Shown here in pieces: positions 1,315 through 52,204 of a stretch of DNA of 64,000 nt. Numbering within the stretch: position 1 is the first letter of the stretch; every line of letters starts with the position of its first letter. The position numbers and the translations under genes are program-made. Under the pieces are notes generated by a model, which saw nothing but the letters and a program-made list of their open reading frames with translations, was not told the origin of the DNA and did not search any database. The stretch comes from Oscillatoria sp. CS-180 (GTDB lineage: Bacteria; Cyanobacteriota; Cyanobacteriia; Phormidesmidales; Phormidesmidaceae): contig NZ_JAQMUB010000092.1 of the NCBI RefSeq assembly GCF_028330965.1, forward strand, positions 62,001 to 126,000, written 5' to 3'.

Positions 1315-3540
1315 ATGAGTTCTTCTTCCCAGCGAAAACGCAACCGATTCCGTACCCAATCCACTCTTAAAACGACATCTCACACTAGAAACAAACCGCA
1401 AGATTCTCATCAGACACACCCTTCACCAACGCTTTCAACAGCTCAGGCTGTCCCCACATTGGGGCGTCGGCTATTGGCTTGGGGATTAGAGGTTGTAGTT
1501 TTTGGTGCCAGCATTGCAGGTCCTTTTTATCTAGGAAGCCACCTCAACAGAATTAGCGAAGCACAGCGCACAGATCTTTCACCGACGCTCCAGATAGTGC
1601 AAGAAGGAGCGGCAAAGGCATTGGGACTATCGCCGCGATCGCTCCCTGAAAAAGTTCCCCCTCTAACCAATCTGTTGTGGTCGTTTTCCTTAGGCTTACC
1701 GCTGATACTAGCAGCAGGCCACATTTACAGCGTCAGCCGTTCTGGTCGCAGCCTACCCAAGCGATGGATGGGCGTTCAAGTTCTGGCACTCAATGGACAG
1801 ATGCCAGGGCTGCGGCGTACTCTGCTACGAGAAGGCATTGGGAAGTGGGGTAGTCCACTACTACTCGCTTATGGCGTTTGGCAACTGAGTGGGGCCTTTC
1901 CAGTTGTCGGTGTACTGTTTGGCTTAGGCACTTTTGCATTGCTGGGTGAAAGTCTGACAGGTTTGGGGAATCGTCCTCGGCGGGCTTGGCACGATTGGCT
2001 AGCGGGCACCTGCGTTGTTGATCAAGAAACGGGTGCGATTATTCACCTTTCAAGTCTCTGGGATGCAGAGGCGAACTTCTCGGATGCCCGTCGAAGAAAT
2101 CTCTCAGGTTGGGCACAGGCGGTTGGCCCTACCACAGTCGTCATGAACCCAACACGGCAAACCTGGCGAAAATCTGAGCTGAACTTCTCGAAAATCGGGC
2201 TTGGGTGTGGCTTACTGCTAGTGGTTGGAGGACTCATTGGAGTCGGCACTCACTTTTTGGCCGGGCGATCGCTCATCGCAGCTCAGTCCGCCGAAGAAAA
2301 CCTCTACGTCAATCTTGTTTCAACGCTCACGAACCCAGAACTTGACCCGGCAGCTCGACGCTCCGCTGTTCTGGCCTTAGGCAATCTACCGGACGATCGC
2401 GTTACCCCTTTATTGGTTGACCTTATCGCGCAAACAGACGATGACCTCTGGCTAGATGCTCTCCAGCAGGCCCTCGTAGCGCGGGGAACAGAAGCCTTTC
2501 CTTACCTGCGTCGTTTAAACCAAAGTTTGACAACCGACTTAGCAACTCAAGGCGATCCCACCCGCCGTCGCATTTTGATTGTTCGTCTGCAAACGGTGAA
2601 TCGGATTGTCACGAAGCTGCTGGTGCTTGAAGGCAGCGATCGCCCATCATGGCTCGACCTCAGCCGTATGCACTTGGGCTATGTTGCTGGCAACAATAGC
2701 GACTTCAAACTTGTTCTCAAAAATCAAGACCTGTCAGATATACAGTGGCAGGGATCCGTTATGACCCAGGCTCAACTTCAAGGAGCCAAGTTCTACAGTC
2801 CTGGAGCAGACGATCATCCTGATACTTATGACGATCGCATGGCAGACCTCAGCGGCGCAGACCTAACGGACGCTAATTTGACTGGGGCTGACCTTTCCCT
2901 CAGCCAGCTTGTCAACTCAGGGTTATTACGAACTAACCTGAATCGAGCCAATCTCACACTGGCGAATCTCAGTGGAGCCAACTTGGAAAATGCCACTTTG
3001 ATTCAGGCTCAATTAAATGAAGCTCAACTCATTGAGGCTAAGCTATCCAAAGCAGATTTGACTGAAGCAGAACTCTTTAGGGCCAATCTCACAGGAGCTC
3101 GCTTAGCAGAAGCAGATGCCGCAGGTGCTCAGATGATCGGGGCAGACCTACAAGGCATCACAGCCCGTTCAGCCAATTTGAAGGACAGTGACCTGAGCAA
3201 TTCGTCGCTAGAGAATGCAGATTTTTCTGGAGCCACTTTACAGGGAGCTAATCTCAGAAATGCTGACTTGACTGGCACTAATCTCAGAGATACCGACTTG
3301 CGGGGAGTCTGGCTACAGGGTGCGATTCTGGATAGGACAGACCTAGCAGGAGCTATTTTGATGGAAAGCGCCAGGAGTAGCGATCGCGGTTTCGTCGAGG
3401 CAGTTCCTAATTTGACCCATCAGAACCAATTTGAAGGAGTAGACTTCAGTCAGGCCCTCAACCTAACGCCTCAGCAAATAAGTTTTATTTGCACCCAAGG
3501 AGGCATCCATCCCACCTGTAGCCGACCGACCCAGCAGTAA
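1315..3540 (+). CDS. RDD-domain membrane protein with C-terminal pentapeptide repeats
   Basis: About 741 residues. A basic, Ser/Thr-rich N-terminus is followed by an RDD-type membrane domain (residues about 40-235; hydrophobic spans, the signature stretch LPKRWMGVQVLALNG, and an Arg-rich loop). Another membrane span lies near 295-320. Next comes a region of alternating helices with LGNLPDDRVTPLLVDLI-type HEAT-like spacing (about 330-410). The C-terminal half (about 470-720) is many tandem A(D/N)LxX pentapeptide repeats forming a right-handed beta helix. Function is unknown; the architecture suggests a membrane-anchored scaffold. The ATG at 1315 is preferred to the GTG at 1306. The next gene (ycf20) starts 8 bases after the stop, so the two are probably cotranscribed. 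Confidence 0.8.
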   Translation: MSSSSQRKRNRFRTQSTLKTTSHTRNKPQDSHQTHPSPTLSTAQAVPTLGRRLLAWGLEVVVFGASIAGPFYLGSHLNRISEAQRTDLSPTLQIVQEGAAKALGLSPRSLPEKVPPLTNLLWSFSLGLPLILAAGHIYSVSRSGRSLPKRWMGVQVLALNGQMPGLRRTLLREGIGKWGSPLLLAYGVWQLSGAFPVVGVLFGLGTFALLGESLTGLGNRPRRAWHDWLAGTCVVDQETGAIIHLSSLWDAEANFSDARRRNLSGWAQAVGPTTVVMNPTRQTWRKSELNFSKIGLGCGLLLVVGGLIGVGTHFLAGRSLIAAQSAEENLYVNLVSTLTNPELDPAARRSAVLALGNLPDDRVTPLLVDLIAQTDDDLWLDALQQALVARGTEAFPYLRRLNQSLTTDLATQGDPTRRRILIVRLQTVNRIVTKLLVLEGSDRPSWLDLSRMHLGYVAGNNSDFKLVLKNQDLSDIQWQGSVMTQAQLQGAKFYSPGADDHPDTYDDRMADLSGADLTDANLTGADLSLSQLVNSGLLRTNLNRANLTLANLSGANLENATLIQAQLNEAQLIEAKLSKADLTEAELFRANLTGARLAEADAAGAQMIGADLQGITARSANLKDSDLSNSSLENADFSGATLQGANLRNADLTGTNLRDTDLRGVWLQGAILDRTDLAGAILMESARSSDRGFVEAVPNLTHQNQFEGVDFSQALNLTPQQISFICTQGGIHPTCSRPTQQ

Positions 3541-3890: not shown

Positions 3891-4529
3891 GATCGCTTGC
3901 AAGCTTTTCAAAAAGGTCAGCGATCGCGCCTGAATAGTCTCCCAATCACGCTTAGCCAACAAGTCTTTGGGGAACAAGCTACTGGAAACACCGACTGCGA
4001 TCGCTCCAGCATGAATAAAAGCTTGCCCCTCCTCTAATAAAATCCCGCCTGTAGGAATCAGAGGAATATGCCTTAGGGGTCCCTGTAGGTGACGAATATA
4101 GGCTGCACCCCCCACGGATTGACAGGGAAAAACCTTAATACTGCTTGCTCCTAATTGCCAAGCCGCCATAATTTCAGTTGGCGTCAGCGCCCCTGGAGTG
4201 ACCGGAATATCATGATGTTGACAGAGCTGAATCACATCCGGATCCGTATAGGGCGCAAAGCAAAATTCTGCTCCAGCGATAATTGCCGCTTTCATGTCCG
4301 TGCTGGATAGAATAGTGCCCACACCAACTCGGCAATGGGAGGGCAACCCTTGACGCAGTTGGCTAATTAAATGGGCAGGGCGATCGCTATTCCAAGTCAC
4401 TTCAATGAGATGAAATCCGCCTTTCGCTGCTGCGTGCGCCATCGCAATTCCCATGTCTAACGTTGGGGCACGCAGCACTGCGATCGCACGATGTTGCTTT
4501 AGCATTGCTAGCCAAACGTCTCTATCCAT
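3879..4529 (-). CDS. eda: KDPG/KHG aldolase (Entner-Doudoroff aldolase family)
   Basis: 216 residues from the ATG at 4529; the frame extends 16 codons upstream but the family starts near MDRDVWLAMLKQH. Members cleave 2-keto-3-deoxy-6-phosphogluconate to pyruvate and glyceraldehyde-3-phosphate, or 4-hydroxy-2-oxoglutarate to pyruvate and glyoxylate. Visible class I features are the catalytic Glu in LIEVTWNSD, the VGVGTIL loop, the Schiff-base Lys in SSIKVFPC and the phosphate-binding PTGGI motif. It is convergent with ycf20. A gluconate permease/kinase pair at 32-35 kb gives it a plausible pathway partner. KDPG versus KHG preference cannot be decided from sequence. Confidence 0.88.
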   Translation of the reverse strand: MDRDVWLAMLKQHRAIAVLRAPTLDMGIAMAHAAAKGGFHLIEVTWNSDRPAHLISQLRQGLPSHCRVGVGTILSSTDMKAAIIAGAEFCFAPYTDPDVIQLCQHHDIPVTPGALTPTEIMAAWQLGASSIKVFPCQSVGGAAYIRHLQGPLRHIPLIPTGGILLEEGQAFIHAGAIAVGVSSSLFPKDLLAKRDWETIQARSLTFLKSLQAISAP

Positions 4530-5205
4530 AGCTCTTCGGAAACGTACGCCTAGTCTAACTCCGTAGAACAGACGCAAAATTCCTATAAGCCAAGAAACCT
4601 GAAGTCAACTCAAATAGTTGACCTTTCACCGTAGTTGTATAGCGATCCTATTTAGATTTTGCATCAGGTTTTCCTAGGAAAACCTGATGCAAAAAGCCTT
4701 CCCGCCAAAAGAATCATCTGGGATGGCTATATGACTTGGAGACTAGCGAGAACGATAAACCCCGTACCGTAAAAGAATCATTGAGCTGCTCCTTATCTCC
4801 TAACTTTTGCTATAGATTTTCCCTATTGATTCTATTGATATGACATCAAAATTTTTCAGAGTGTTGCCTCGCAAAAACCTCAGACTCTTAACTCAAAAAG
4901 TTACAGCGGTTAGGCAAGAAATTTCAGGCAGGTTTCGTTAATATTCAATTGCGTATGGCATGAGGATAAAATGATCCTGCTGATTCAGTAGGATTTGGAG
5001 CTTTTGAAGCACACTTAAGAACCACAACAAGCATTCGTGGATGAGATAAATTGCTGCTGCTCTGACACCAGATTGACTAACAAAATTAATTAACCGTTCA
5101 AGTTCTAACCCCTGTGTTCTCCAGCCTATAGCTGCTAATCACTCGCTAATTTGAGGGATTTTACGCAGTTTTTTCCAAATTATTCAAAACGTCCAAGCTA
5201 ATGCT
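4530..5205. other. long intergenic region, no gene seen
   Basis: About 675 bases between the divergent aldolase gene and the next rightward gene, with no open frame of coding character. Its notable content is a perfect 38-bp palindrome (listed separately). The remainder is AT-rich and likely holds the promoters of both flanking genes, but I could not fix a promoter with confidence. Confidence 0.6.
4657..4694. promoter_or_regulatory. perfect 38-bp palindrome
   Basis: Two 19-base arms, perfectly complementary with no spacer; the centre is TCCTAGGA and the outer ends are TTTT/AAAA. It lies about 130 bases upstream of the aldolase start and about 510 bases upstream of the rightward gene at 5206. 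It could be a dimer-protein operator, a cruciform-forming site, or a terminator-like hairpin for a transcript I cannot see. The TTTT/AAAA ends would give a U-run in either direction. Confidence 0.7.
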
Positions 5206-5973
5206 ATGACTCTGCCTTCAGGATCAGAAAGAGAAATCGAAGATGCCAAGCTGCTGCTTGAAGAGTACAGCTTTGACCTGAGCGGGTTTCAGGCAGGTGA
5301 GCTAGTGGCGATTTGGCAACAGCGACTAGAAATGAGTCCTAGCTGGATTCGTTCAGCTGTTCTAGAAGCGCTATATCAAGGACGATACAAAGCTTTTTCG
5401 GTGGAACAAATTTTACAAGGTTGGAAGCGGCGGGGACATCCTATTCGTCATTTCAATAGTGAATTTGAGCGGATTGTTTTGGGTCCAATCGATCCAACTG
5501 TCAGCAAGTACGCTGCCATGACGTCTTTGCGCCCGTCGGAACTTATGGCCCCACAGGTCAATCAGGCTCCTGGTGTACCGTCCACAGAAACAGCGCCAAC
5601 CAACGAAAAACGGGCGGCAACTACTGCTGCGGAAGATTCTCCGATCAGTTCCCCACTGAATCAAGCGGACGAGTTACCGCCAGATGAGCCGCATACGAAA
5701 ACGTCTGAGTCAGAGCCGGCATCAAAAACAGCAGCGGTTGACGTTGTTGAAACAAGTGTTTCGGAAGCAGATATTCCTGATGCAAACGCTTCTAAAGCAG
5801 ATATTGCTGAAATAGAAGATAAGATTGTGCCTCCTTCAGCTAATGCGACTGTTCAGGGTAACAGCCAGTCCTTCCTCTTCAACCAGCCCGAACCTATTCA
5901 GAAGTTCGTTCCTCATCTGGAAGCTTCGGGATTCTATGACCGTTTACAATCAGTTTTCCGACACTCACTGTAA
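5206..5973 (+). CDS. conserved hypothetical protein with disordered linker
   Basis: 255 residues, function not recognised. The N-terminal 100 residues look like a compact helical domain (EDAKLLLEEYSFDLSGF ... WIRSAVLEALYQGRYKA ... VEQILQGWKRRG), of a kind that could bind nucleic acid or protein; this is a guess. Residues about 110-220 are a low-complexity linker rich in Ala, Pro, Glu, Thr and Ser. A short conserved-looking tail follows (FLFNQPEPIQKFVPHLEASG). ATG at 5206; the other nearby ATG (5201) is in another frame and stops at once. It stands alone, with long non-coding DNA upstream. Confidence 0.65.
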   Translation: MTLPSGSEREIEDAKLLLEEYSFDLSGFQAGELVAIWQQRLEMSPSWIRSAVLEALYQGRYKAFSVEQILQGWKRRGHPIRHFNSEFERIVLGPIDPTVSKYAAMTSLRPSELMAPQVNQAPGVPSTETAPTNEKRAATTAAEDSPISSPLNQADELPPDEPHTKTSESEPASKTAAVDVVETSVSEADIPDANASKADIAEIEDKIVPPSANATVQGNSQSFLFNQPEPIQKFVPHLEASGFYDRLQSVFRHSL

Positions 5974-6102
5974 AAGTGAGTTTTAGCGTAACGAGCTGCA
6001 GCTGAATCAAGCTCATCGAGACTACACTCCCGCATTAAAGAGCTGATCGGCTGTCAGGCGCAATGAGATTGCGGGTACCATTACGTTTGCTACTCACTCA
6101 AT

Positions 6103-7068
6103 CTACCGGTTAGCATAGGCAGCCATTGGTTCTTTGATAAAGCGAATATAGAGATGCTTGAAAGTAGACTTGACCACGCGGGGCATCCCAAAATCAATTG
6201 GCATAAGCTGGGCAGGAAACTGCCAGTCCGCGATCTCCAATATCTCTGGACGCTGCAATGGAAAGTCAATATCCTCTAGATCTGGACAGAGTCCCAAGCG
6301 CTGAGACTGAGCCACGGTTGGAATTGCCGCCGGATCGCCCTGAAGAACCTCTACCAGTGCCCGATCCAATGCAAAAACGTCCGTTGAGGCACCTAATAAT
6401 CCCAAAGCACGCGGTTCGCCACCACTGGGACCGTTCCCTTCATGACCGATGATGCCATCCACAATGGTGAGTTGGGGAGAAATCGCACGAGCGGTTTCAA
6501 CGAGCATTGTGCCGAAGCGATCGCGATCTTTACCGGCCTCCATGTGCCACCACGCTTTCATCTTGCCGGGAACACAGCCAAACAGGTTTTTGACGCCTAG
6601 CGTCAGCGTTAACTGGACGTGAGATTTCACCTTAGGCAGGTTAATCACGACATCCGCATTCATCGCCTCTTTAGACAGTCGTAGATGAGCAAACTCTCCA
6701 CTAGCAGACGTTGCATAGCGCTGCCCTTGCAGTTCCCGTACAGGCACCTCAGCTTTTTCTAGCCAAGGTAAATAACCGTTAGCCTCCGCTACCCCATGAG
6801 CGCTCCCAAACGCTGGACTATCCCCCATGAAAGGATGCCCCCCTGCTGCTTTGACCAGTTCAGCAACACAGTAGACAATCTCAGGACGAGTGACACACTC
6901 CTTGGTGGGTCTAGCTCCTGTCAACAGATTGGGTTTGAGCAAAACGCGATCGCCCGGCTTCACAATCCCTTCCATACCCCCAAAAGGCGCTAATAGCTGT
7001 TGAAGTTTCGCTGTCACCTCATCGGTAGCGTAGCTTTGCGCTTGCAAAAGGGAAACGGTTGAAGTCAT
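6103..7068 (-). CDS. DUF362 domain-containing protein
   Basis: 321 residues matching the DUF362 family. Visible features are the early VLLKPNLLTG motif, the THP-like segment TRPEIVYCVAELVKAAGG, GDSPAFGSA, the INLPKVKSHVQLTLTLGVKN block and VDGIIGHEGNGPSGGEPR. Some family members carry ferredoxin-type 4Fe-4S clusters at the C-terminus; none is visible here because the tail lacks a CxxCxxC array. The biochemical role is undefined. It is a single gene, with the acetyltransferase divergent from its start side. Confidence 0.8.
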   Translation of the reverse strand: MTSTVSLLQAQSYATDEVTAKLQQLLAPFGGMEGIVKPGDRVLLKPNLLTGARPTKECVTRPEIVYCVAELVKAAGGHPFMGDSPAFGSAHGVAEANGYLPWLEKAEVPVRELQGQRYATSASGEFAHLRLSKEAMNADVVINLPKVKSHVQLTLTLGVKNLFGCVPGKMKAWWHMEAGKDRDRFGTMLVETARAISPQLTIVDGIIGHEGNGPSGGEPRALGLLGASTDVFALDRALVEVLQGDPAAIPTVAQSQRLGLCPDLEDIDFPLQRPEILEIADWQFPAQLMPIDFGMPRVVKSTFKHLYIRFIKEPMAAYANR

Positions 7069-9947: not shown

Positions 9948-11258
9948 CTATCCCCAGCGTCCTGGATTGAGTCGCTGTTGGGGATCAAACTGCTCTTGCA
10001 AACGAGACATCAGCATGCTGACAGACTCCTTCAATGCCCAAGGCTCTATCGTGGCTTTCCAGTCGGCTGGCGCTTCCAGTAGCGTCAAATAACCACCAGT
10101 CCCTTGACACTGCGATCGCACTGCTGCCAGCCCTTTGAGAAACGTTGGGTCACCGTCTAACCACAAGGTCCCAAGGCCACTTCCTGCATGGATTCGAGCC
10201 TGCCAGGTATCGACGGGAAACGTAGAGTGAAGCGTCTGCATCAAATCAACAGCTTTTGCTGGCAGGATGCCAAGTTTTGCGATCGCGATTCCAGTTCGTT
10301 TGTCCGCCGAAAATAGGGTCTGGTTGATGTTCTGCCAAAACTGAGTGTCGTTCTCATCACTCAAAACCTGAGATCCTAAATCGTAGGGCTGCGCAATTTT
10401 CCCTAATAGCTCTACTTGCTCAACAACACCAGCCTCAATGCTCTGAAATTGTAGGGCCAGTCCAAAGGTATCAGCGTCTCGCTTGGATAATAGTCCTGAC
10501 GACACCAGATCCATAGCCACAGGTGTCAGTGAAGACTGCAAAACATCAGCTGCAACAGACTTGATAGACGCGGCATTTCCCACTAGCAGTACCGTTCTGG
10601 ATACATCGGGTAGTGGATAGGTCCGAAACGTGAGCTGAGTGAAGACCCCCAAAGTACCAAAGGAACCACTCATCAGCTTCATTAGGTCATAGCCTGCAAC
10701 ATTTTTAACAACACGGCCTCCAGCTTTCGCCATTTGACCGTCATGACGCACAAAAGAAATACCAATCAGCATGTCGCGAATGCCACCGTAACGCTGTCGT
10801 AAGGCTCCGGTATCTCGCGTCGCAACAATGCCACCCAAGGTTGCCCGTTGAGGGTAGGCTGGGTCGATAGTCAGAAACTGTCGAGTCTTTATTAAGTTAG
10901 CTTGCACCTGAGCAAATGACGCTCCTGTTTGCGCTGTGAGGGTTAAATCACCTTCAGCGTGTTCAACGACCTGATTGAGTTTTTGAGTGCTGACAACCAA
11001 GTCAACTTCGCTGACTAACGCCCCCCACGTTAGCTTACTGCCACTTCCGCAGGGCATAATGCGCCACTGATTCTGATGGGCGCAAGTCATAACTTCTGCC
11101 AGTTGCTCAGGATTTTCAGGATAGGCAATGCAGTCTGGCGAAGATTCGGATGCGATCGCCCCTTGTATCGTCTGTCGCACTGGCTCAGCTAATACGTCCC
11201 AGGAAGTAACCTGCGCGTCCCCCAGAATAGCTTGTATTGTTCGGGTGATAGACCCCAT
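9948..11258 (-). CDS. glcE: glycolate oxidase FAD-binding subunit GlcE
   Basis: 436 residues of the FAD_binding_4 family. The PP-loop region MPCGSGSKLTWG (about 68-80), the TLGGIVATRDTG segment, the RYGGIRDMLIGISFVRHDG motif and AGGRVVKNVAGYDLMKLMSGSFGTLGV are all characteristic of GlcE, the shorter FAD subunit of glycolate dehydrogenase. That enzyme oxidises photorespiratory glycolate to glyoxylate. It ends in a typical DPQQRLNPGR. GlcD and GlcF are not in the window, so the complex must be completed from elsewhere, as is usual in cyanobacteria. Confidence 0.92.
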   Translation of the reverse strand: MGSITRTIQAILGDAQVTSWDVLAEPVRQTIQGAIASESSPDCIAYPENPEQLAEVMTCAHQNQWRIMPCGSGSKLTWGALVSEVDLVVSTQKLNQVVEHAEGDLTLTAQTGASFAQVQANLIKTRQFLTIDPAYPQRATLGGIVATRDTGALRQRYGGIRDMLIGISFVRHDGQMAKAGGRVVKNVAGYDLMKLMSGSFGTLGVFTQLTFRTYPLPDVSRTVLLVGNAASIKSVAADVLQSSLTPVAMDLVSSGLLSKRDADTFGLALQFQSIEAGVVEQVELLGKIAQPYDLGSQVLSDENDTQFWQNINQTLFSADKRTGIAIAKLGILPAKAVDLMQTLHSTFPVDTWQARIHAGSGLGTLWLDGDPTFLKGLAAVRSQCQGTGGYLTLLEAPADWKATIEPWALKESVSMLMSRLQEQFDPQQRLNPGRWG

Positions 11259-11335: not shown

Positions 11336-11521
11336 ATAGCTAACCTAGTGAGGTCTATCTAGCTTTAGCCCTGTAAGCTTGTGCAGCAAGAAAGCATCTA
11401 TAGCCTTGTGCAGCAAGAAAGCAGGGAATAGGGAATGGGGTGTGCTTGACTCAAATGCATGCCGCTATAGATGCGCCAGATGGCTCGTCGTCTTGTCTTA
11501 ACGGAACTGGCGACGGCCATA
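11336..11521. repeat. composite of family C and family A miniature repeats
   Basis: Mosaic repeat in the otherwise gene-free stretch 11259-11675. A family C unit (about 11399-11470, from TATAGCCTTGTGCAGC to CATGCCGCTATAG) abuts the 3' half of a family A unit (about 11471-11521, ending ACTGGCGACGGCCATA). Inside, the 18-mer TTGTGCAGCAAGAAAGCA occurs twice, at 11380-11397 and 11406-11423, which looks like a short tandem duplication across the C end. The remaining bases before 11676 show no gene. Confidence 0.7.
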
Positions 11522-11675
11522 TGTGCGAGTATCAAAACGGGTTAGACCAAACCGTTATGGGTAACCTCCGAATCAACAGCAACTTTGCATTGTGAAGGTG
11601 ATCAATGCCTCTAGCACGTTGCTCCCAGATTAGATAGAGTGTCTAACAAAAGAATATTAGGCAGTGGCATAGACT

Positions 11676-12212
11676 ATGAAAATTGCTCTCACAGCAGCTA
11701 GCCTCATGAGCAGTCTCTCACTTTACGGATCTCCTGCTCTAGCCCAAACTACCGACTATTTTTGTTACATCGTTCAGCCCAATGGGCGTTTAGTGGACTT
11801 GACGGAATTTTGTGGAGGTTACGAAGAGATTTCCACAGCTGTAGGTTCCGGCATGTCTCCTAACAACACTTCGTCACCGGCAACGCCTAATTCTATATCC
11901 GCCGCACAGGGTGACTTGCCGATGAATTGTAATTTTAGCGATCCTCAGGTGGTCGACAATACAACCTCGTTAAGGGTGTCTTACGACTTTTCCTGCTTAG
12001 CACTGGACGATGTTCAAGCGAGCGACATCACTTTAGAACTTGCGATCGCTGATGATGCGGTCAGCTTTGGCTTGCCTGTCATACAAGCAATGCCTCCCCT
12101 GGCTGCTGGCGCAACTCATAACTCCAGTGTGACGTTCAACAGCGTTGGACGCCCTACTGGAGAAACGGTTGTGTTTGAATTGTCTTATGTTGTCCAAGAG
12201 CGCCCGCTTTAA
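11676..12212 (+). CDS. small secreted protein with paired-Cys N-terminal motif
   Basis: 178 residues. The N-terminus is a clear signal peptide (MKIALTAASLMSSLSLYGSPALA, cleavage after ALA). The mature protein begins TTDYFCYIVQPNGRLVDLTEFCG, with two cysteines that may form a disulfide; two more cysteines lie in MNCNF and FSCLAL. The C-terminal half (about 85-178) is predicted all-beta and Ig-like in feel. The N-terminal motif recurs in the protein at 31165 (DWVCWM ... VDMSNICG), suggesting a family of exported proteins. Function unknown. Confidence 0.75.
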   Translation: MKIALTAASLMSSLSLYGSPALAQTTDYFCYIVQPNGRLVDLTEFCGGYEEISTAVGSGMSPNNTSSPATPNSISAAQGDLPMNCNFSDPQVVDNTTSLRVSYDFSCLALDDVQASDITLELAIADDAVSFGLPVIQAMPPLAAGATHNSSVTFNSVGRPTGETVVFELSYVVQERPL

Positions 12213-12220
12213 TTGATTCT

Positions 12221-12252
12221 GGCAGCAGAGACATGCTCAACATGCCTCTGCC
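12221..12252. terminator. hairpin between convergent genes
   Basis: GGCAGCAGAGACATG pairs with CATGCCTCTGCC across a five-base loop, with one bulge; AAAA follows on the right. It sits between the convergent secreted-protein and glutathione S-transferase genes and could terminate both. Confidence 0.5.
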
Positions 12253-12271
12253 AAAACTTTAGAGTCCCTTT

Positions 12272-13063
12272 TTAGTCAATGTTGATGGAAGTCGGGCCGC
12301 TACCGCCACTGGGAGCACCTACACGAACCTTGCGGCAGGCGAGGTAGAGGCGATCGCGCCAGTCAAAGAAGGGTTGATAGCTGATGTCATCCGCTAAGCC
12401 AGGAACCCCCTTGCCACAGATACCTTCCGGCAAATCGACATACTGGCTAGAGGGGAACTTGATATACATCGTGATGCCTGCAACAGCCAAATCCGCCAGC
12501 GTCGGCTGATCGCCCACCAAATAAGGGTGGTCCGATAACATCAGACAGAGTGATTTCAGTGCTTGTTTGAGCACTCGGGTCGCTTCTTTGATGTCTTCGG
12601 GACCAAAACCAACACCTGCCCCCAAGATGCTCAAGATGTCGCCAGGCACAGCGCCCACCAGATTTTTAACCAAATCGGGAGTCGCCGCAGGTAACAACGC
12701 TGTTCGGAAGTTAGGATGCTGGCTGAATGCGCCAATCATGGCTTTGCGCCCTTGAATACCCAAGGATTCGTCCGCCCAATCTTCTATCGCCAAGCACAAA
12801 CCTTTCTGATAGGAATCGGTCGGCAAAAGGGGACGTTCGGGATACTTCTCTTCTAAATAAAGGGCAATCTCAGTGGAATCCGGAACCACCTCGGTGCCAT
12901 CTTTGAGGACAGGAACTTTGCGCTGACCTGACATTTGAAACAGTTCAATTTGCCCTACCCCAGGTGTGACTTCAATAGCCTTATAGGGGAGCTGCTTGTA
13001 GTCGAGAATTAGCTTGACCTTTTCACTATAGGCAGAGGCTTCAAACTGATAAAGCTCTAGCAT
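12272..13063 (-). CDS. glutathione S-transferase family protein
   Basis: 263 residues from the ATG at 13063; six further codons are open upstream, but MLELYQFEASAYSEKVKL is the canonical thioredoxin-fold start. The N-terminal GST domain (about 1-80) shows the RKVPVL cis-Pro motif and PDSTEIALYLEEKYP for glutathione binding. A helical C-terminal domain follows, with the HPYLVGDQPTLADLAVAG motif. The family conjugates or reduces electrophiles or peroxides, and the substrate is unknown. It is followed 25 bases upstream by the DUF4230 gene on the same strand, which may be cotranscribed. Confidence 0.85.
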   Translation of the reverse strand: MLELYQFEASAYSEKVKLILDYKQLPYKAIEVTPGVGQIELFQMSGQRKVPVLKDGTEVVPDSTEIALYLEEKYPERPLLPTDSYQKGLCLAIEDWADESLGIQGRKAMIGAFSQHPNFRTALLPAATPDLVKNLVGAVPGDILSILGAGVGFGPEDIKEATRVLKQALKSLCLMLSDHPYLVGDQPTLADLAVAGITMYIKFPSSQYVDLPEGICGKGVPGLADDISYQPFFDWRDRLYLACRKVRVGAPSGGSGPTSINID

Positions 13064-45212: not shown

Positions 45213-45752
45213 CTATGCGCGATCGAGAATGAAAAAGTAGGGCGTTCCTGAAGCCTTGTAGTCCATGAGACCAAACACAGTGTCATCGCTGACTTTTCTG
45301 AAGGCATCGTGAATGGGTAGATAGTCATAAATCATCGTGGCGCTGACTTTGCCGCGATGTTCCATCATCCGCAAACGAGCCTGACTTTCTTCAGTTTTAA
45401 GAAGCGTTGTGAGAGAGGTATAAACAGGCTTTAGAGCTTCGTTTCTGGGCAGAGGGGATTTTAGCGCCAAGTTCATCAAAAACGCCTGAGGAGCAACTTT
45501 GAACAACTGATCGTTATTGCCTGAAAATAGGAGTGGGTGAACGCAATCGGGACTCACAAACTCTTTGCCGTACCAATTGGTAGCAGCAAGCAGACCATCC
45601 ATGGGGTGCCCCGTCAATAGTTCAGAGCCACGCCACCGTCCCATCATGAAGTCCAGATCAACTGGTTCAAGCTGATCGAATAGCGCCAAGGCTTCTGCTA
45701 CGGTCGTTCGACCCTGTAGACGAATGGTGTCAAAATTTTCTAACGTCAGCAT
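45213..45752 (-). CDS. GXWXG/DUF4334 domain protein
   Basis: 179 residues. The N-terminal GXWXG-type motif is visible as MMGRWRGSELLTGHPMDGLL (about 35-55), followed by WYGKEFVSPDCVHPLLF. The C-terminal part matches DUF4334 (RMMEHRGKVSATMIYDYLPIHDAFRKV, VFGLMDYK, PYFFILDR). Members are small cytoplasmic beta-barrel proteins of unknown function. It lies downstream of the SDR gene on the same strand with 151 bases between, so a shared transcript is possible but not certain. Confidence 0.8.
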   Translation of the reverse strand: MLTLENFDTIRLQGRTTVAEALALFDQLEPVDLDFMMGRWRGSELLTGHPMDGLLAATNWYGKEFVSPDCVHPLLFSGNNDQLFKVAPQAFLMNLALKSPLPRNEALKPVYTSLTTLLKTEESQARLRMMEHRGKVSATMIYDYLPIHDAFRKVSDDTVFGLMDYKASGTPYFFILDRA

Positions 45753-45903
45753 CTTTTAGCAATGAATTAGACTACAGCGTATAAAACCGGACTTAATCTA
45801 ACATCCTCAGGGCTTGGGCAAACGAACGATTCGACGCCCAAAACTAGCTTAGGGCAAGCATTGCCATCCTAGCTATGACTATTCTGAGTAAAACACAATC
45901 CTC

Positions 45904-46716
45904 TCAATCTTGATTCTGAAAGACTTTGCTGATCATCCATCGCAGTCCTTGAGGAAAGATTCGATAACTCCCTTCAGAGAGCTTGGCACTGCCAACCGTA
46001 ACGTCGCCGCGCTTATTTTCAACCGCATCCCAAACTGCTTCAGCCACCTTGTCTGGCGTCTCGACTAACGGCACTTGGAGGACTTTTTCAACTTGCTCGC
46101 GACGCTGCTGCATATCCTCTTGGCTGTTTCCTTTAAAGATTGCCCGATCCAAGAAACTACTTTTGATGATGTTGGGATAGATGCCGCAGACGTGAATACC
46201 TTTGTGCTCTAGTTCAGCCTGCAAAGATTGAGTCAGGCCCGCGATCGCAAACTTGGAGGTTGTATAAGGTGCCAAATACGGCAGCGGAATCTTGCCACCG
46301 ATGGAGCAAACATTGACGATGGTACCGTTTCTGCGTTCTTCAAAATGGGGTAGCAGAGCATGAATGGTATGAATATAACCCCACAGATTAGTGTCGATCG
46401 CCTGATGCCAATCGTCTAGAGAAAACTGACTCGCTGGACCAGAGATATAAATACCCGCATTGTTCACGAGGACATCAACCGTACCAAACTGAGCCAAAGT
46501 CTTCTGCACCAAAACCTTGACTTGCTCAGGATCGCGAACATCTGTGGGAATCGCCAGCGACGAGTGATGTTGAGCCTGGAGTTCAGCCGCAGCCTGTTGG
46601 AGGCGATCGCCCTGACGAGCGGCCATCACAACATTAAAACCGTGGCGAGCAAACTGGGTTGCGATCGCTCGACCAATACCTTGAGATGCTCCTGTAATAA
46701 GAACTGTTGAAGCCAT
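45904..46716 (-). CDS. short-chain dehydrogenase/reductase
   Basis: 270 residues from MASTVLITGASQGIGRA at 46716; the longer open frame is not used. Classical SDR: TGASQGIG cofactor loop, VLVNNAG, the catalytic Ser in VNVCSIGGK, and the YTTSK active-site Tyr-x-x-x-Lys. The C-terminal YPNIIKSSFL is typical. It reduces or oxidises a carbonyl/hydroxyl using NADP(H); the substrate is unknown. It follows the aldo/keto reductase on the same strand, as a likely two-gene operon. Confidence 0.88.
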   Translation of the reverse strand: MASTVLITGASQGIGRAIATQFARHGFNVVMAARQGDRLQQAAAELQAQHHSSLAIPTDVRDPEQVKVLVQKTLAQFGTVDVLVNNAGIYISGPASQFSLDDWHQAIDTNLWGYIHTIHALLPHFEERRNGTIVNVCSIGGKIPLPYLAPYTTSKFAIAGLTQSLQAELEHKGIHVCGIYPNIIKSSFLDRAIFKGNSQEDMQQRREQVEKVLQVPLVETPDKVAEAVWDAVENKRGDVTVGSAKLSEGSYRIFPQGLRWMISKVFQNQD

Positions 46717-46832
46717 AACAGACGTCACTAACACGAAGGGTGAACCTTTCTTTAGCGTGACGAAGAAAGGATGCTTCACCGTCTCACCTGAGTTAGATTC
46801 CCCGTCGTCATTTGTCAGACCAACGTCGAGCA

Positions 46833-47939
46833 CTACTCTGTTGCGGTTTCGGGAGACGCTTCAACCAGAACGGGCTGATGATAAGAATTAGGCTTATCAC
46901 CAACAGCAGCACCGCCATGAATCATGCCTTGCAGAGTGGATTCAAAAAACGTGTAGGGAAAACGAGATTCAGGGCGGCTGACATCCTCTAAGCGCTGCTG
47001 AAGCTCTGTAGGAATCTCAAACTCCAGGGCACCCAGATTATCTTTCAGCTGGTGCAGCTTGGTAGCGCCGATGATGACGGAAGCAACGGCAGGACGATTA
47101 ACAACCCAGTTCAGCGCAACTTGGGCCATGGAGCGATCAAGTTCTTTGGCAACCTGTTCCAACTCTGCCACGATCGCCCAGTTCTTCTCGGTAAATTTGT
47201 TGAACGCCGGATTACCACTGTCTGCCAGCATAGCCAACCGTCCGGAGCCTGCTCCCCCGTCTTCTGAGGGTTTGTATTTGCCGGAAAGCAAACCACTCGC
47301 CAACGGCGACCAGACCATAATGCCCGTGCCTAAAGCATTTGCCATCGCCGTGTATTCATATTCGATATTGCGTTCCGCCAGCGAATATTCCAGCTGAACG
47401 GTGCTGATGGGTTCCCAATGACGTTCTTGCGCGATCGTCTGAGCCTGAGCCACGTACCATGCAGGGGCATCAGAAAGAGCAACATAGCGGACTTTGCCTG
47501 ATCGCACCAAGTCATCCAGGGTTCGCATGACTTCCTCGGCAGGGGTCACTTGATCCCAAGTGTGCAGCATGTAGATGTCGATATAGTCTGTATTAAGCCG
47601 TTGGAGGGATCCTTCGACCGCTCGCAGAATGTTTTTGCGCCCGTTGCCGCCTGCATTGGGATTGCCTGGCTCGGCGTTATAGCTAAATTTTGTGGTGATG
47701 ACGACGCGATCGCGGCTACCACTCTCGGTCACAAATTTCCCTAGCATGCGCTCGCTGTTGCCGTTGGTGTAGAGGTCGGCTGTATCGATGAAGTTGCCGC
47801 CCGCCTCCAAGTAGGTGTCGAACAGTTGACGGGCATTGGACTCATCCGCGCCCCAACCCCAATCATCGCCAAAAGTCATCGTGCCCAAAGCCAGACGGCT
47901 AACGCGGAGTCCAGTGTTGCCCAGGGTGTAGTAGTTCAT
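46833..47939 (-). CDS. aldo/keto reductase
   Basis: 368 residues of the AKR superfamily. Catalytic tetrad candidates are Asp in NFIDTADLYTNG, Tyr in the same segment, Lys in VVITTKF and His in YMLHTW. Cofactor-binding segments are VQLEYSLAERNIE and VWSPLASGLLSGKY, with NADPH-type ASVIIGATKLHQLKDNLGA. The start region NYYTLGNTGLRVSRLALGTMTFG is standard. It precedes the SDR gene, and the dead AraC gene lies divergently upstream, suggesting lost regulation. Confidence 0.9.
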   Translation of the reverse strand: MNYYTLGNTGLRVSRLALGTMTFGDDWGWGADESNARQLFDTYLEAGGNFIDTADLYTNGNSERMLGKFVTESGSRDRVVITTKFSYNAEPGNPNAGGNGRKNILRAVEGSLQRLNTDYIDIYMLHTWDQVTPAEEVMRTLDDLVRSGKVRYVALSDAPAWYVAQAQTIAQERHWEPISTVQLEYSLAERNIEYEYTAMANALGTGIMVWSPLASGLLSGKYKPSEDGGAGSGRLAMLADSGNPAFNKFTEKNWAIVAELEQVAKELDRSMAQVALNWVVNRPAVASVIIGATKLHQLKDNLGALEFEIPTELQQRLEDVSRPESRFPYTFFESTLQGMIHGGAAVGDKPNSYHQPVLVEASPETATE

Positions 47940-48048
47940 TTTGTGCTCGCAATCAGGTGTACAGTCGTTGCTAGGGGACAGCGTTTAAAATGATTCTTGA
48001 ACTAAACTACTCAGTTTCGGGACAAAATTGCAGCGCCAGCCAACGGAT

Positions 48049-48279
48049 TTGAGTAAATTCCATTTCTCCCGGTTGTTCAAAGACATCGTCGAATTAATAC
48101 CCCTCTAATACGTGCTGAAACGCTACGTTGATCATGCAGCCCATAGGCTTAAACAAGAGGATTGCGCGATCGCTTAAGTTGCCCACACCTTTGGATTTGC
48201 CGATCAGTCTCACTTCACCCGAGTATTCAAACAGGTCAAGGGAGTCACACCCCGAAATTTTCAGAAGCAAGAGAAGTAG
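48049..48279 (+). pseudogene. AraC-family regulator remnant with two in-frame stops
   Basis: A 76-codon stretch in one frame encodes the helix-turn-helix half of an AraC/XylS regulator (LSKFHFSRLFKDIVELIPL, then YVLKRYVDHAAHRLKQEDCA, then VAHTFGFADQSHFTRVFKQV, ending RNFQKQEK). It is broken by TAA at 48106 (where family members have a Gln, CAA) and TAA at 48175 (usually Glu, GAA). The N-terminal sensing half is missing. It is divergent from the aldo/keto reductase. Confidence 0.8.
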
Positions 48280-48307
48280 CGTCATTGCCCACATCAGGGC
48301 TATTTCC

Positions 48308-48643
48308 ATGTTGATAAAAAGAGTGTTCTGGATCGGTCTCTTGGTGTTGTTTTGCTGGTTATGCACGATCGCCGTTAGTACTGCACAAACCAACAGCATT
48401 CGCCTAGAGTCCCGTATTGATCAACTGGAGTCCGAACTGTCACGGGTGCGATCGCAAATCACTCGATTAGAATCTCAAATCAACAATCCTGGCCGTCCTG
48501 TTGCACCAGTCGAATCCACAGCCCTGCCCAACGAACTCTCCTTAGAGGAACAGTTTGATAATTTGGCGACGTTGGCGATCGAACTGAAGCTGGACGTCCG
48601 GGAGTTGCAAGAGCGCGTCAGTCAGCTAGAGCCAAGCGAATAG
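48308..48643 (+). CDS. small exported coiled-coil protein
   Basis: 111 residues from the ATG at 48308; the longer frame upstream is the AraC remnant read out of frame. A signal peptide (MLIKRVFWIGLLVLFCWLCT to STA) precedes a coiled coil (about 28-60, RLESRIDQLESELSRVRSQI), a short Pro-rich turn and a second helix pair (ELSLEEQFDNLATLAIELKL). Unknown function; it could trimerise or dimerise in the periplasm. Confidence 0.65.
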   Translation: MLIKRVFWIGLLVLFCWLCTIAVSTAQTNSIRLESRIDQLESELSRVRSQITRLESQINNPGRPVAPVESTALPNELSLEEQFDNLATLAIELKLDVRELQERVSQLEPSE

Positions 48644-49086: not shown

Positions 49087-49371
49087 GTGATTACCATTCA
49101 ATACTTCTTGCCGTCTCATCATACTGAGGCGGCACCGCCGTCGCTGCCCAGCAATCCTGCTCATCCCCAGCGACGACACAAGCGGCTACGTCTTTACTTG
49201 GTGGGCACTGAAGCGGACACCCAAAGCGCCATTGATCTGTTTCACCTGCGGAACTGCATCGAACGCATCGAGTGGAGTCCGAAGATCGACGTGCCGGAGA
49301 ACGGTGTGCTGATTCGCCAAGACCCTGGTGACGTGTTGCGATACTTGCAGCGCGACAGACTGTTCGAGTAG
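49087..49371 (+). CDS. small conserved-type hypothetical protein
   Basis: 94 residues from a GTG start with GGAGGA six bases ahead. A Pro/His-rich N-terminus (PSHHTEAAPPSLPSNPAHPQ) precedes a compact alpha/beta domain (RLRLYLVGTEADTQSAIDLF; IERIEWSPKIDVPENGVLIR; GDVLRYLQRDRLFE). Not recognised; the good ribosome site and defined fold make it probably real. Confidence 0.6.
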   Translation: MITIQYFLPSHHTEAAPPSLPSNPAHPQRRHKRLRLYLVGTEADTQSAIDLFHLRNCIERIEWSPKIDVPENGVLIRQDPGDVLRYLQRDRLFE

Positions 49372-49723
49372 CACGCTAAGAATTAGCCCCCCGGTTTTTA
49401 TTAAGAATTAGCCCCCCGGTTTTTATCAGAAGGTGGATTGTTGGTCCGAGCTTTTATGAGAAACCGAGGGGTTGAAGCAGGGGAAGGCGGGGCGATCGCG
49501 CTAGCTCTATTAGTCATATCAAAACAGTTTTTGCGGACTAACATAGCTACTGGCACTTCTCGAACCGAATAGGAAGACACGACGGTTAGGCTGACGAACT
49601 TCCACCTAACGGCCCGTATAAGTTGCTTAAGCTGACGAATGTTTACCTAATCACCCGCATCCAAGGGTGTTTGCAGAACTGTTCCCTTCAAGTATGTTGC
49701 TGTGCCCTCAAGGTAAAAAGCCT
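49372..49723. repeat. gene-free region with tandem and diverged direct repeats
   Basis: A near-exact tandem duplication (unit AAGAATTAGCCCCCCGGTTT, period 25) lies at 49378-49425. Two diverged 30-bp direct repeats starting GCTGACGAA and containing ACCTAA are at 49590-49619 and 49631-49660, 41 bases apart (22 of 30 matches). No gene is seen. Confidence 0.55.
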
Positions 49724-50622: not shown

Positions 50623-50739
50623 AGAAGCACTGGCAAGCTAAAGATGGCTTAGCAACATTTCAGGTCCATGTTTGGGCAATGCTTAATCCGTCTGAAAGCA
50701 GCGATAATAGATGGAGTGTGCTCTGATACTTTAAGTGAA

Positions 50740-50964
50740 ATGGCAATGACTGAGTTACTTGAGCGTGCGATAGCTAGATTGCAAATCTTGTCTGAGAGTG
50801 AGCAGAACGCGATCGCTTCAATCATTCTGGACGAGATTGAGGACGAACGACGTTGGGATGAGGCATTTTCGCGTTCGCCGGATGTTCTGGCAAAACTTGC
50901 AGATTCCGCAATGGCTGAGTATCGTGCAGGTAAAACTCAAGAACTTGACCCAGAGGCATTGTGA
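50740..50964 (+). CDS. antitoxin-like protein of a toxin-antitoxin pair
   Basis: 74 residues from MAMTELLERAIARLQILSES; the frame is open upstream but this start fits the family. The protein is charged and helical (QNAIASIILDEIEDERRWDEAF) and ends in a conserved-type tail (MAEYRAGKTQELDPEAL) that probably wraps the toxin, a layout familiar in antitoxins paired with RelE/ParE toxins. The stop overlaps the toxin start by four bases (GTGA), showing translational coupling. Confidence 0.75.
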   Translation: MAMTELLERAIARLQILSESEQNAIASIILDEIEDERRWDEAFSRSPDVLAKLADSAMAEYRAGKTQELDPEAL

Positions 50965-51230
50965 ACTCGCGTACTACTACCGAGTTCCGCAACTTGTTCG
51001 CTAGTTTACCTAAACAGGTTCAAGAGCAAACCCGCGCCGCATATCGTCAGTTTAGGGACGATCCAAGCTATCCAAGTCTTCGTTTCAAGAAGGTGCATCC
51101 AAAGTTGCCAATTTATTCCGCCCGCATCAATAAAAGCTATCGAGCGTTAGGTCAGTTAGATGGAGATACAGTAATTTGGTTTTGGGTTGGTTCACACGCA
51201 GAATATGACAGGTTGTTAGGGTATTTATAG
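50961..51230 (+). CDS. RelE/ParE-superfamily toxin
   Basis: 89 residues starting with GTG inside the antitoxin's last codons. The RelE/ParE/YafQ-type fold is suggested by FRNLFASLPKQVQEQTRAAY, YPSLRFKKVHPKLPIYSARI and the end NKSYRALGQLDGDTVIWFWV followed by GSHAEYDRLLGYL, whose closing His-x-x-Tyr is common in the family. It would cleave mRNA at the ribosome or poison gyrase; the family alone does not decide which. Confidence 0.8.
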   Translation: MNSRTTTEFRNLFASLPKQVQEQTRAAYRQFRDDPSYPSLRFKKVHPKLPIYSARINKSYRALGQLDGDTVIWFWVGSHAEYDRLLGYL

Positions 51231-51322: not shown

Positions 51323-52204
51323 TTATCGCTTTTGATAGGCTTTAGGCGTCACTCCCGTTATCTGACGGAAGACTTTTGTTAGATGCGTTTGATTGGCAAA
51401 GCCACAATCTAGGGCAATGGTGCTAATTGCAAGCGATCGCTGTTTCAGTAATTGTTTGGCTCGTTCCACACGTTGTCGCAGCAAATACCGATAGGGTGCA
51501 ATTCCCATCGATTGCTTGAAAGAGCGGCTGAAGTGGGATTCGCTCATATTGGCCAGGGCCGCCAAATCCAAAATTGATATATCTTTCGCCAAATTCGCCT
51601 TCATATAATCAATGACTCGCTCCAGCTGTGATTGCGGTAAGCCGTTGGCTTTCAATTCAGGCTTGTTGACGGCATAGTTCTGAACCAAACGAGCGGCAAG
51701 CGCTGTTCCTAATGCCTCGCCATACAATCTGCCAGACAGACATCCCGTTTGGATTTCTATCTTGAGCGCAAGGGCCAACTGTGCGATGACCGGATCATCA
51801 ATTGCACACTGGGGAACCAGTTCGATATCATGCTGCATCGATTCTTGAGCGGCCTGATTTAGCACTGTTGGGCAAATCGCAATCACTGAAAATTCAACTT
51901 TCCGATTCCAGTTTGTGGAATGACTTAGAAATGCGGGAACAACATCTACGCGACCGTTGCCGTGGACGTAGCGTTTAAGTCTACCGTCCAAACGACGTTC
52001 TGCCTGAAAGCAACTTTTGGGGTTTGTGATGACCAACGAATGCTGTAGCAGACGATGCTCCACCGTTTCGTAGGGAGGATGACAGTAGTGAGTGAAGGTT
52101 AACCCTTTCCACCCAGTAGGGTAACTCGCAATTAAGGGTGCCTGTGGAAGGACTTGCGCTGCATCCACCCGGTTTGTCAAATCAACGGTGAAAGTTGTCA
52201 CCAT
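51323..52204 (-). CDS. AraC-family transcriptional regulator
   Basis: 293 residues. The N-terminal half is an unrecognised sensing domain. The C-terminal 100 carry two helix-turn-helix motifs: ISILDLAALANMSESHFSRS and AISTIALDCGFANQTHLTKVF, then ITGVTPKAYQKR. It is divergent from the SnoaL-like gene (136-base gap), so probably controls it and itself from that gap. It resembles the dead AraC gene at 48049 in family but is clearly not identical. Confidence 0.9.
   Translation of the reverse strand: MVTTFTVDLTNRVDAAQVLPQAPLIASYPTGWKGLTFTHYCHPPYETVEHRLLQHSLVITNPKSCFQAERRLDGRLKRYVHGNGRVDVVPAFLSHSTNWNRKVEFSVIAICPTVLNQAAQESMQHDIELVPQCAIDDPVIAQLALALKIEIQTGCLSGRLYGEALGTALAARLVQNYAVNKPELKANGLPQSQLERVIDYMKANLAKDISILDLAALANMSESHFSRSFKQSMGIAPYRYLLRQRVERAKQLLKQRSLAISTIALDCGFANQTHLTKVFRQITGVTPKAYQKR

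Follow-up and report, generated by a model that had tools for sequence, protein, structure and literature searches.

The sequence at positions 48043-48279 (forward strand) of the window, by which we mean the whole 64,000 nt stretch of Oscillatoria sp. CS-180 DNA that was analysed, is, judged by sequence and position, the positional pseudogene of an AraC-family regulator linked to an aldo/keto reductase (AKR), a case of ordinary gene decay in which the 3′ end of the gene is what remains. Our preferred reading, to which we give a probability of roughly 0.85, is that this remnant derives from a now dead AraC/XylS-type regulator of the divergently transcribed AKR gene, that the operator of the regulator is drifting, and that the AKR would now be expressed at a basal and unresponsive level or from another promoter.

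The first 6 bp of the remnant match weakly, and its reading frame (48049-48279) begins at approximately codon 223 of about 297 and ends with a TAG terminator at 48277. As described in the original prediction, the frame contains two in-frame TAA codons, located at 48106-48108 and 48175-48177, and the alignment with intact homologues lying by an AKR, which had been proposed as a check, placed both of them in columns that are sense codons in 11 of 11 intact relatives (the protein alignments were made without G018, which has an internal stop, and without L090/G027, which has a frameshift and a contig end). The residues previously expected at these sites, Gln and Glu, each occur in just one of the 11 relatives, the column of the first stop being Lys and that of the second being Gln in eight of them. 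Read through the stops, the remnant scored 70.5 bits against Pfam HTH_18 (PF12833) and 58.5 bits against HTH_AraC (PF00165); with the stops counted, HTH_18 was still matched at 64.8 bits (E 4.6e-17) in a six-frame search of its own genome, and at the DNA level the match of the remnant to a relative has an E value of 4e-26. This similarity is not due to chance, and the C-terminal AraC-type double HTH found in the read-through remnant assigns its ancestry to the AraC/XylS family. A working AraC/XylS regulator has a complete double HTH in an open frame, whereas here two stops interrupt the domain and the first helix of HTH1 is deleted. The earlier description of the DNA-binding sequence as intact apart from the stops has to be revised on this account, and also because the remnant departs from four of the 33 columns that are invariant among the 11 intact relatives, as compared to 0-1 of 33-34 columns for the intact relatives when each was left out in turn (G071, which has a stop in its AKR, was also omitted from this comparison). 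The orthologous position of the remnant, together with lesions that disable it relative to the intact copies, is what characterizes a pseudogene.

The largest of these lesions is a deletion, the junction of which lies at 48032-48048. Between the distal end of the operator and the codon at which the remnant frame begins, the window has 17 bp as compared to 687-710 bp in eight relatives, indicating that some 670-690 bp comprising the leader (20-28 bp in relatives) and codons 1 to about 222 have been deleted. On a predicted model of an intact orthologue, of which we used only the helices past residue 190 (pLDDT block means are 42-73 for residues 1-180), the deleted segment takes with it the N-terminal half and two helices, one at 191-206 and the other, the first of HTH1, at 214-221. 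The N-terminal half is therefore indeed missing, as originally noted, but the true loss amounts to about three quarters of the gene. The branch length of the remnant at codon positions 1 and 2 was 0.212, within the range of the intact rows (0-0.263). Split by codon position, the branch lengths do not clearly point to a relaxation of selection, which is compatible with the gene having been lost fairly recently, or with the sequence just being too short. An intact copy in the same strain would have spoken against the loss of the regulator; with a full-length query at E 1e-60, no orthologue was found elsewhere in the assembly of this genome, a 6.5 Mb draft of 102 contigs from a genus that also includes G002, G003 and G005, and a plasmid search found nothing.

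The remnant, used as a query at E 1e-20 or better, identified 10 of 63 family genomes (its own genome counted), with an identity of 62-68% in eight of the nine others and 56% in one. In eight of these nine an orthologue of the window AKR lies near the regulator orthologue: five regulators are directly divergent from the AKR (G020, G065, G076, G063 and G030), two are divergent at a distance of about 1.2-1.3 kb (G012 and G071), and in G005 the two genes are about 4.5 kb apart, while in G018 they are on different contigs. The full-length query (E 1e-60) again found 10 of 63 genomes, with G019 (genes on different contigs) now included and the own genome now absent. Among named loci, the directly divergent arrangement is found in Kaiparowitsia, Acaryochloris and an Oscillatoria, and the hosts of the pair are Leptolyngbya-like cyanobacteria in which the two genes are divergent in most cases. 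These orthologues hold the same place as the remnant, and together with the deletion and the stops they bear out the original view of a dead AraC regulator divergent from an AKR. The start-to-start gap between the two genes is 147-148 bp in five of eight directly divergent loci and 118, 140 and 278 bp in the others, and the intact orthologues each possess two HTH_AraC stretches. Two orthologues carry damage that may represent further loss or draft error, that of G018 (L056:6140-7021) an internal stop and that of L090:1-480 a frameshift near a contig end, at a coverage of 2.7.

The AKR of the window (46833-47939, reverse strand) is the intact and conserved divergent partner, a full-length PF00248 enzyme that is 80-90% identical to its counterparts in 19 other family genomes and 82-91% identical to the AKRs next to intact regulators. 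All 10 regulator-bearing family genomes possess the AKR, which is present in 21 of the 63 (E 1e-100); only 10 of these 21 have the regulator, and about half of the AKR-bearing family genomes, the own genome included, have no regulator at E 1e-60. The AKR scored below the curated cut-off of all seven NCBIfam models that it matched, the DkgA model being matched weakly at 41.6 bits. Its nearest solved structures are aryl-alcohol-dehydrogenase-like and DepB reductases (7utf and 8hwn), and like these, E. coli Tas (1lqa) and AKR14A1 YghZ (3n6q) resemble it in AKR sequence, over residues 1-306 to 1-329. Downstream of the AKR lies a short-chain dehydrogenase (SDR) gene (45904-46716, reverse strand), and the AKR-SDR pair had been proposed as the former target of the regulator. 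This finds no support in the distribution of the SDR, which is not a conserved partner: an orthologue was found in just five of 62 other family genomes (E 1e-90; 72% identical in G018, the other four at 53-55%), in no case at the AKR locus but on other contigs or in genomes without the AKR, while SDRs that do lie near AKRs in relatives are merely 28-34% identical to that of the window. A conserved AKR-SDR operon was rejected on these two observations.

Alignment of the relatives revealed a strongly conserved block in the intergenic DNA between AKR and regulator, which we predict to be an operator. Its consensus over 13 rows with regulator (these include G027 and G018, in which the regulator is damaged or cut short) is GCAATTTTnTACCAAAACTnA followed by GCAATnnnnTnCAAG, two direct half-sites with a period of 21 bp that have the letters GCAATnnnnTnCnA in common; a wording of the half-site with CTAC was discarded as it fits some rows only. 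The self-identity of the first 17 bp is 0.56 at an offset of 21, as against 0.14-0.39 at the remaining offsets from 10 to 25. At a distance of 18 bp past the second half-site there is a -10-like hexamer, GATAGT in 13 of 18 relatives, which would be part of the AKR promoter. With spacings of 16-18, the best -35 hexamer agrees with TTGACA at just one to three of six bases in all 19 rows, and consensus promoter scans returned nothing at the AKR of two relatives; a weak -35 combined with empty scans would suit an activator-dependent promoter, and other promoter types are possible too. Known members of the AraC/XylS family have half-sites spaced by 21 bp, and such sites reach the -35 box. In the relatives the two direct half-sites, spaced by about 21 bp, precede the promoter of the presumed target, extend up to the -35 region and do not cover the -10 or the start. 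This geometry fits an AraC/XylS-type activator, the link between predicted operator and regulator being their genomic co-occurrence.

The window has retained a copy of the element, an eroded predicted operator identified by matrix score at 47994-48031 (reverse strand), with the distal half-site at 48015-48031 and the AKR-proximal one at 47994-48010, again with a 21 bp period. It is situated 92 bp before the AKR start and scored 29.1 bits with a matrix built from eight linked relatives, the next place on either strand scoring 13.4. The segment at about 47975-48035 had in a first alignment been taken for a remnant of the AraC N-terminus, a candidate that was dropped when the intergenic alignment and the site scores identified it as AKR promoter and operator. 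In place of GATAGT, the -10-like hexamer of the window (47970-47975, reverse strand) reads CCTAGC. Altogether six of 28 conserved columns are changed, the most among the 19 rows compared, and of these the half-sites account for four and the hexamer for two (G005 and G071, whose element lies nearer the regulator with none before the AKR, were not part of this comparison, nor were AKR loci carrying no such element). In the other 18 rows 0-5 of 28-31 columns are changed, the worst being 5/31, 4/31 and 4/28; the erosion of the window element is only slightly beyond these. The element pattern at up to 3 mismatches is absent from the window and from the own genome as a whole, and a promoter and terminator scan of 45700-48400 found no more than was found in shuffled sequence.

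Regulator and element go together across the class. The regulator was detected in at least 11 of 388 class genomes when at most 6 candidates per genome were scored. The element, with no more than 2 mismatches allowed, is present in 17 of 388, which comprise all 11 genomes with the regulator and six of the 377 without (G003, G006, G034, G116, G181 and G343). The resulting association (Fisher p 2e-17, kinship being ignored) is partly circular, because six of the 11 genomes (G063, G065, G076, G030, G271 with locus L094 and G238 with locus L095) were among those whose loci supplied the pattern; the five pattern-independent genomes alone (G005, G012, G018, G019 and G213) give p 7e-9, again ignoring kinship. 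With as many as 3 mismatches allowed, a reversed control pattern matched 16 sites spread over 15 genomes, so single 3-mismatch matches mean little. Regulator and AKR are unlinked in G018, yet a separate copy of the element accompanies each of them, which argues that the element would belong to the regulator-AKR pair.

The main fact that a simple regulator-operator model leaves unexplained is the presence of element and AKR without the regulator. In G003, G006 and G034 (L066, L061 and L062) the element precedes an intact AKR with no detectable orthologue of the regulator, and L098 and L105 have weaker forms of the element with no regulator in the locus; such elements may be read by something else, or may persist by inertia. 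In G006 and G034 (L091 and L092), the position divergent from the AKR is taken by another frame, 264 codons long, which on visual inspection seems to encode a membrane protein. G181 has the element with neither gene beside it. In G343 (L202 = G343:C156) the element, at about 1501-1525 with 1 mismatch, is located between an AKR that starts at 1613 and is broken off after 46 residues and a regulator stub at 1381-1472 (reverse strand), in which about 18 first codons run into about 13 last ones in another frame. The matches of the stub are weak (E 2.6e-4 and 0.012) yet in place and order, and by this arrangement G343 is probably to be seen as a second, separate wreck of the AKR-regulator locus.

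Other AraC-family sequences were observed nearby and elsewhere in the own genome. The locus L225 (contig C8:9000-24000) contains an intact AraC-family gene (11422-12396) and five copies of its 3′ end (3922-4071, 4708-4856, 5906-6055, 6702-6840 and 10516-10617) on the same strand within about 8.5 kb, which align over 89-142 bp at 76-83% identity with the 3′ end of the parent only, and are separated by one to a few genes, including a BrnT toxin, a methyltransferase, an 85-codon ORF, a transposase/AraC/SDR set and a HigB toxin. A search of the own genome for this 3′ end (E 0.01) gave six places, none of them outside contig C8, and the copies may be due either to repeated insertion at the AraC 3′ end or to its duplication. 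In the window, two overlapping small genes (50668-51230), of which the second encodes a ParE-like toxin domain (PF24732), are convergent with an intact AraC-family gene at 51323-52204, the product of which is 30-35% identical to the orthologues of the lost regulator, and a short tandem duplication at 49377-49430, in which attagccccccggtttttat occurs twice, follows a small ORF at 49087-49371.

In the relatives, we envisage that the regulator, transcribed divergently from the AKR over a compact intergenic region, would bind as a dimer to the pair of direct half-sites with their 21 bp spacing, of which the AKR-proximal one extends to the -35 region. The AKR would be activated once the N-terminal domain of the regulator has bound a small molecule, possibly a reactive aldehyde or ketone. 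In the own genome the regulator would have been lost and the AKR enzyme kept, with the operator and the -10-like element drifting and the AKR left to basal, unresponsive expression or to expression from another promoter. A comparable arrangement is that of XylS and its promoter Pm, where, according to PMC5481539, two homologous 15 bp direct repeats are bound by two monomers; the title of a reference cited there speaks of an overlap of the XylS and polymerase sites. XylS-Pm shares with the present system the C-terminal double HTH and a pair of homologous half-sites that form direct repeats ahead of the promoter of the target, whereas the half-site letters differ (GCAATnnnnTnCnA here, TGCA-N6-GGTA for XylS; PMC5481539), as does the target, an AKR, and the window regulator is dead. 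PMC8262776 describes E. coli YqhC as an activator of the adjacent reductase genes yqhD and dkgA, the latter encoding a methylglyoxal reductase, with a link to aldehyde tolerance. The placement of an AraC-type regulator beside a reductase gene is common to YqhC as described there (PMC8262776) and the present system, and YqhC may serve as a working analogy; of two intact orthologues of the lost regulator (n = 2), one has an AraC_N (PF06719) match at 12.5 bits, below the cut-off of 24.2, and none was listed for the other.

The lost regulator was most likely an activator, as its predicted operator suggests. With an activator geometry, loss of the regulator should leave the AKR uninduced, and the damage to the -10-like hexamer likewise points to an uninduced AKR. 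The original prediction that the operon may now be constitutive is less probable in the light of the activator-like half-sites, the weak -35 and the damaged -10-like hexamer; an uninduced, reduced or rewired AKR would be more likely, although the AKR could be constitutive should a different promoter have taken over. Repression of their own gene or of a neighbour is a frequent additional activity of divergent regulators, and the AKR frame is intact, both of which would suit a protein that acted wholly or mainly as a repressor and whose loss made the AKR constitutive. We nevertheless hold this to be improbable, as the half-sites end at the -35 region without covering the -10 or the start, the consensus promoter scans were empty at the AKR of the window as well as at those of the two relatives, and the -10-like hexamer is itself damaged; moreover, XylS and E. 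coli YqhC are activators according to PMC5481539 and PMC8262776. Transfer of the AKR to another regulator acting in trans, for example another AraC-family protein, in which case the apparent erosion would be retuning of the site, seems unlikely to us but deserves some weight: open frames of at least 265 codons in the own genome contain 13 other AraC-type domains, and the element persists in genomes without the orthologue. Against this, the best of the other AraC-family proteins of the own genome reach an identity to the orthologue of just 30-34% across alignments longer than 220 residues, and two of the six lost columns are in the -10-like hexamer, where retuning of a binding site would not explain them.

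It is very improbable that the two stops arose in sequencing or assembly and that the regulator is functional. The genome is a draft of 102 contigs, and orthologues in two other drafts (G018 and L090) also show a stop or frameshift, but a loss of 670-690 bp, missense changes and an eroded operator come on top of the stops, and the assembly holds no second copy; all four kinds of lesion agree, which makes error unlikely. Hardly credible is a small DNA-binding peptide still produced from the remnant, for although conservation is good in the second half of the domain, the first HTH has lost a helix, and the open pieces of 19, 22 and 33 codons are set apart by stops that both fall inside the domain.

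Preferring, then, a dead activator with a drifting operator, we suggest tentatively, and with some doubt, that the window may be a snapshot of decay in which a switch and its DNA site are both being taken apart and the enzyme stays. Other genomes may stand for other stages, namely the element without the regulator (G003, G006 and G034), a regulator with a one-codon stop (G018) and stubs of both genes (G343). No publication on an AKR-linked AraC regulator was found in the open-access literature, and the regulator-operator pair looks uncharacterised so far but of a known kind. The comparison presented here defines an AKR-linked AraC regulator of cyanobacteria along with the operator predicted for it, as well as a series of genomes that have both regulator and operator, the operator alone, or the two in decay. 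If the proposed history is true, this would provide a natural series for the rate at which an operator decays after the loss of its regulator, and for what takes over.
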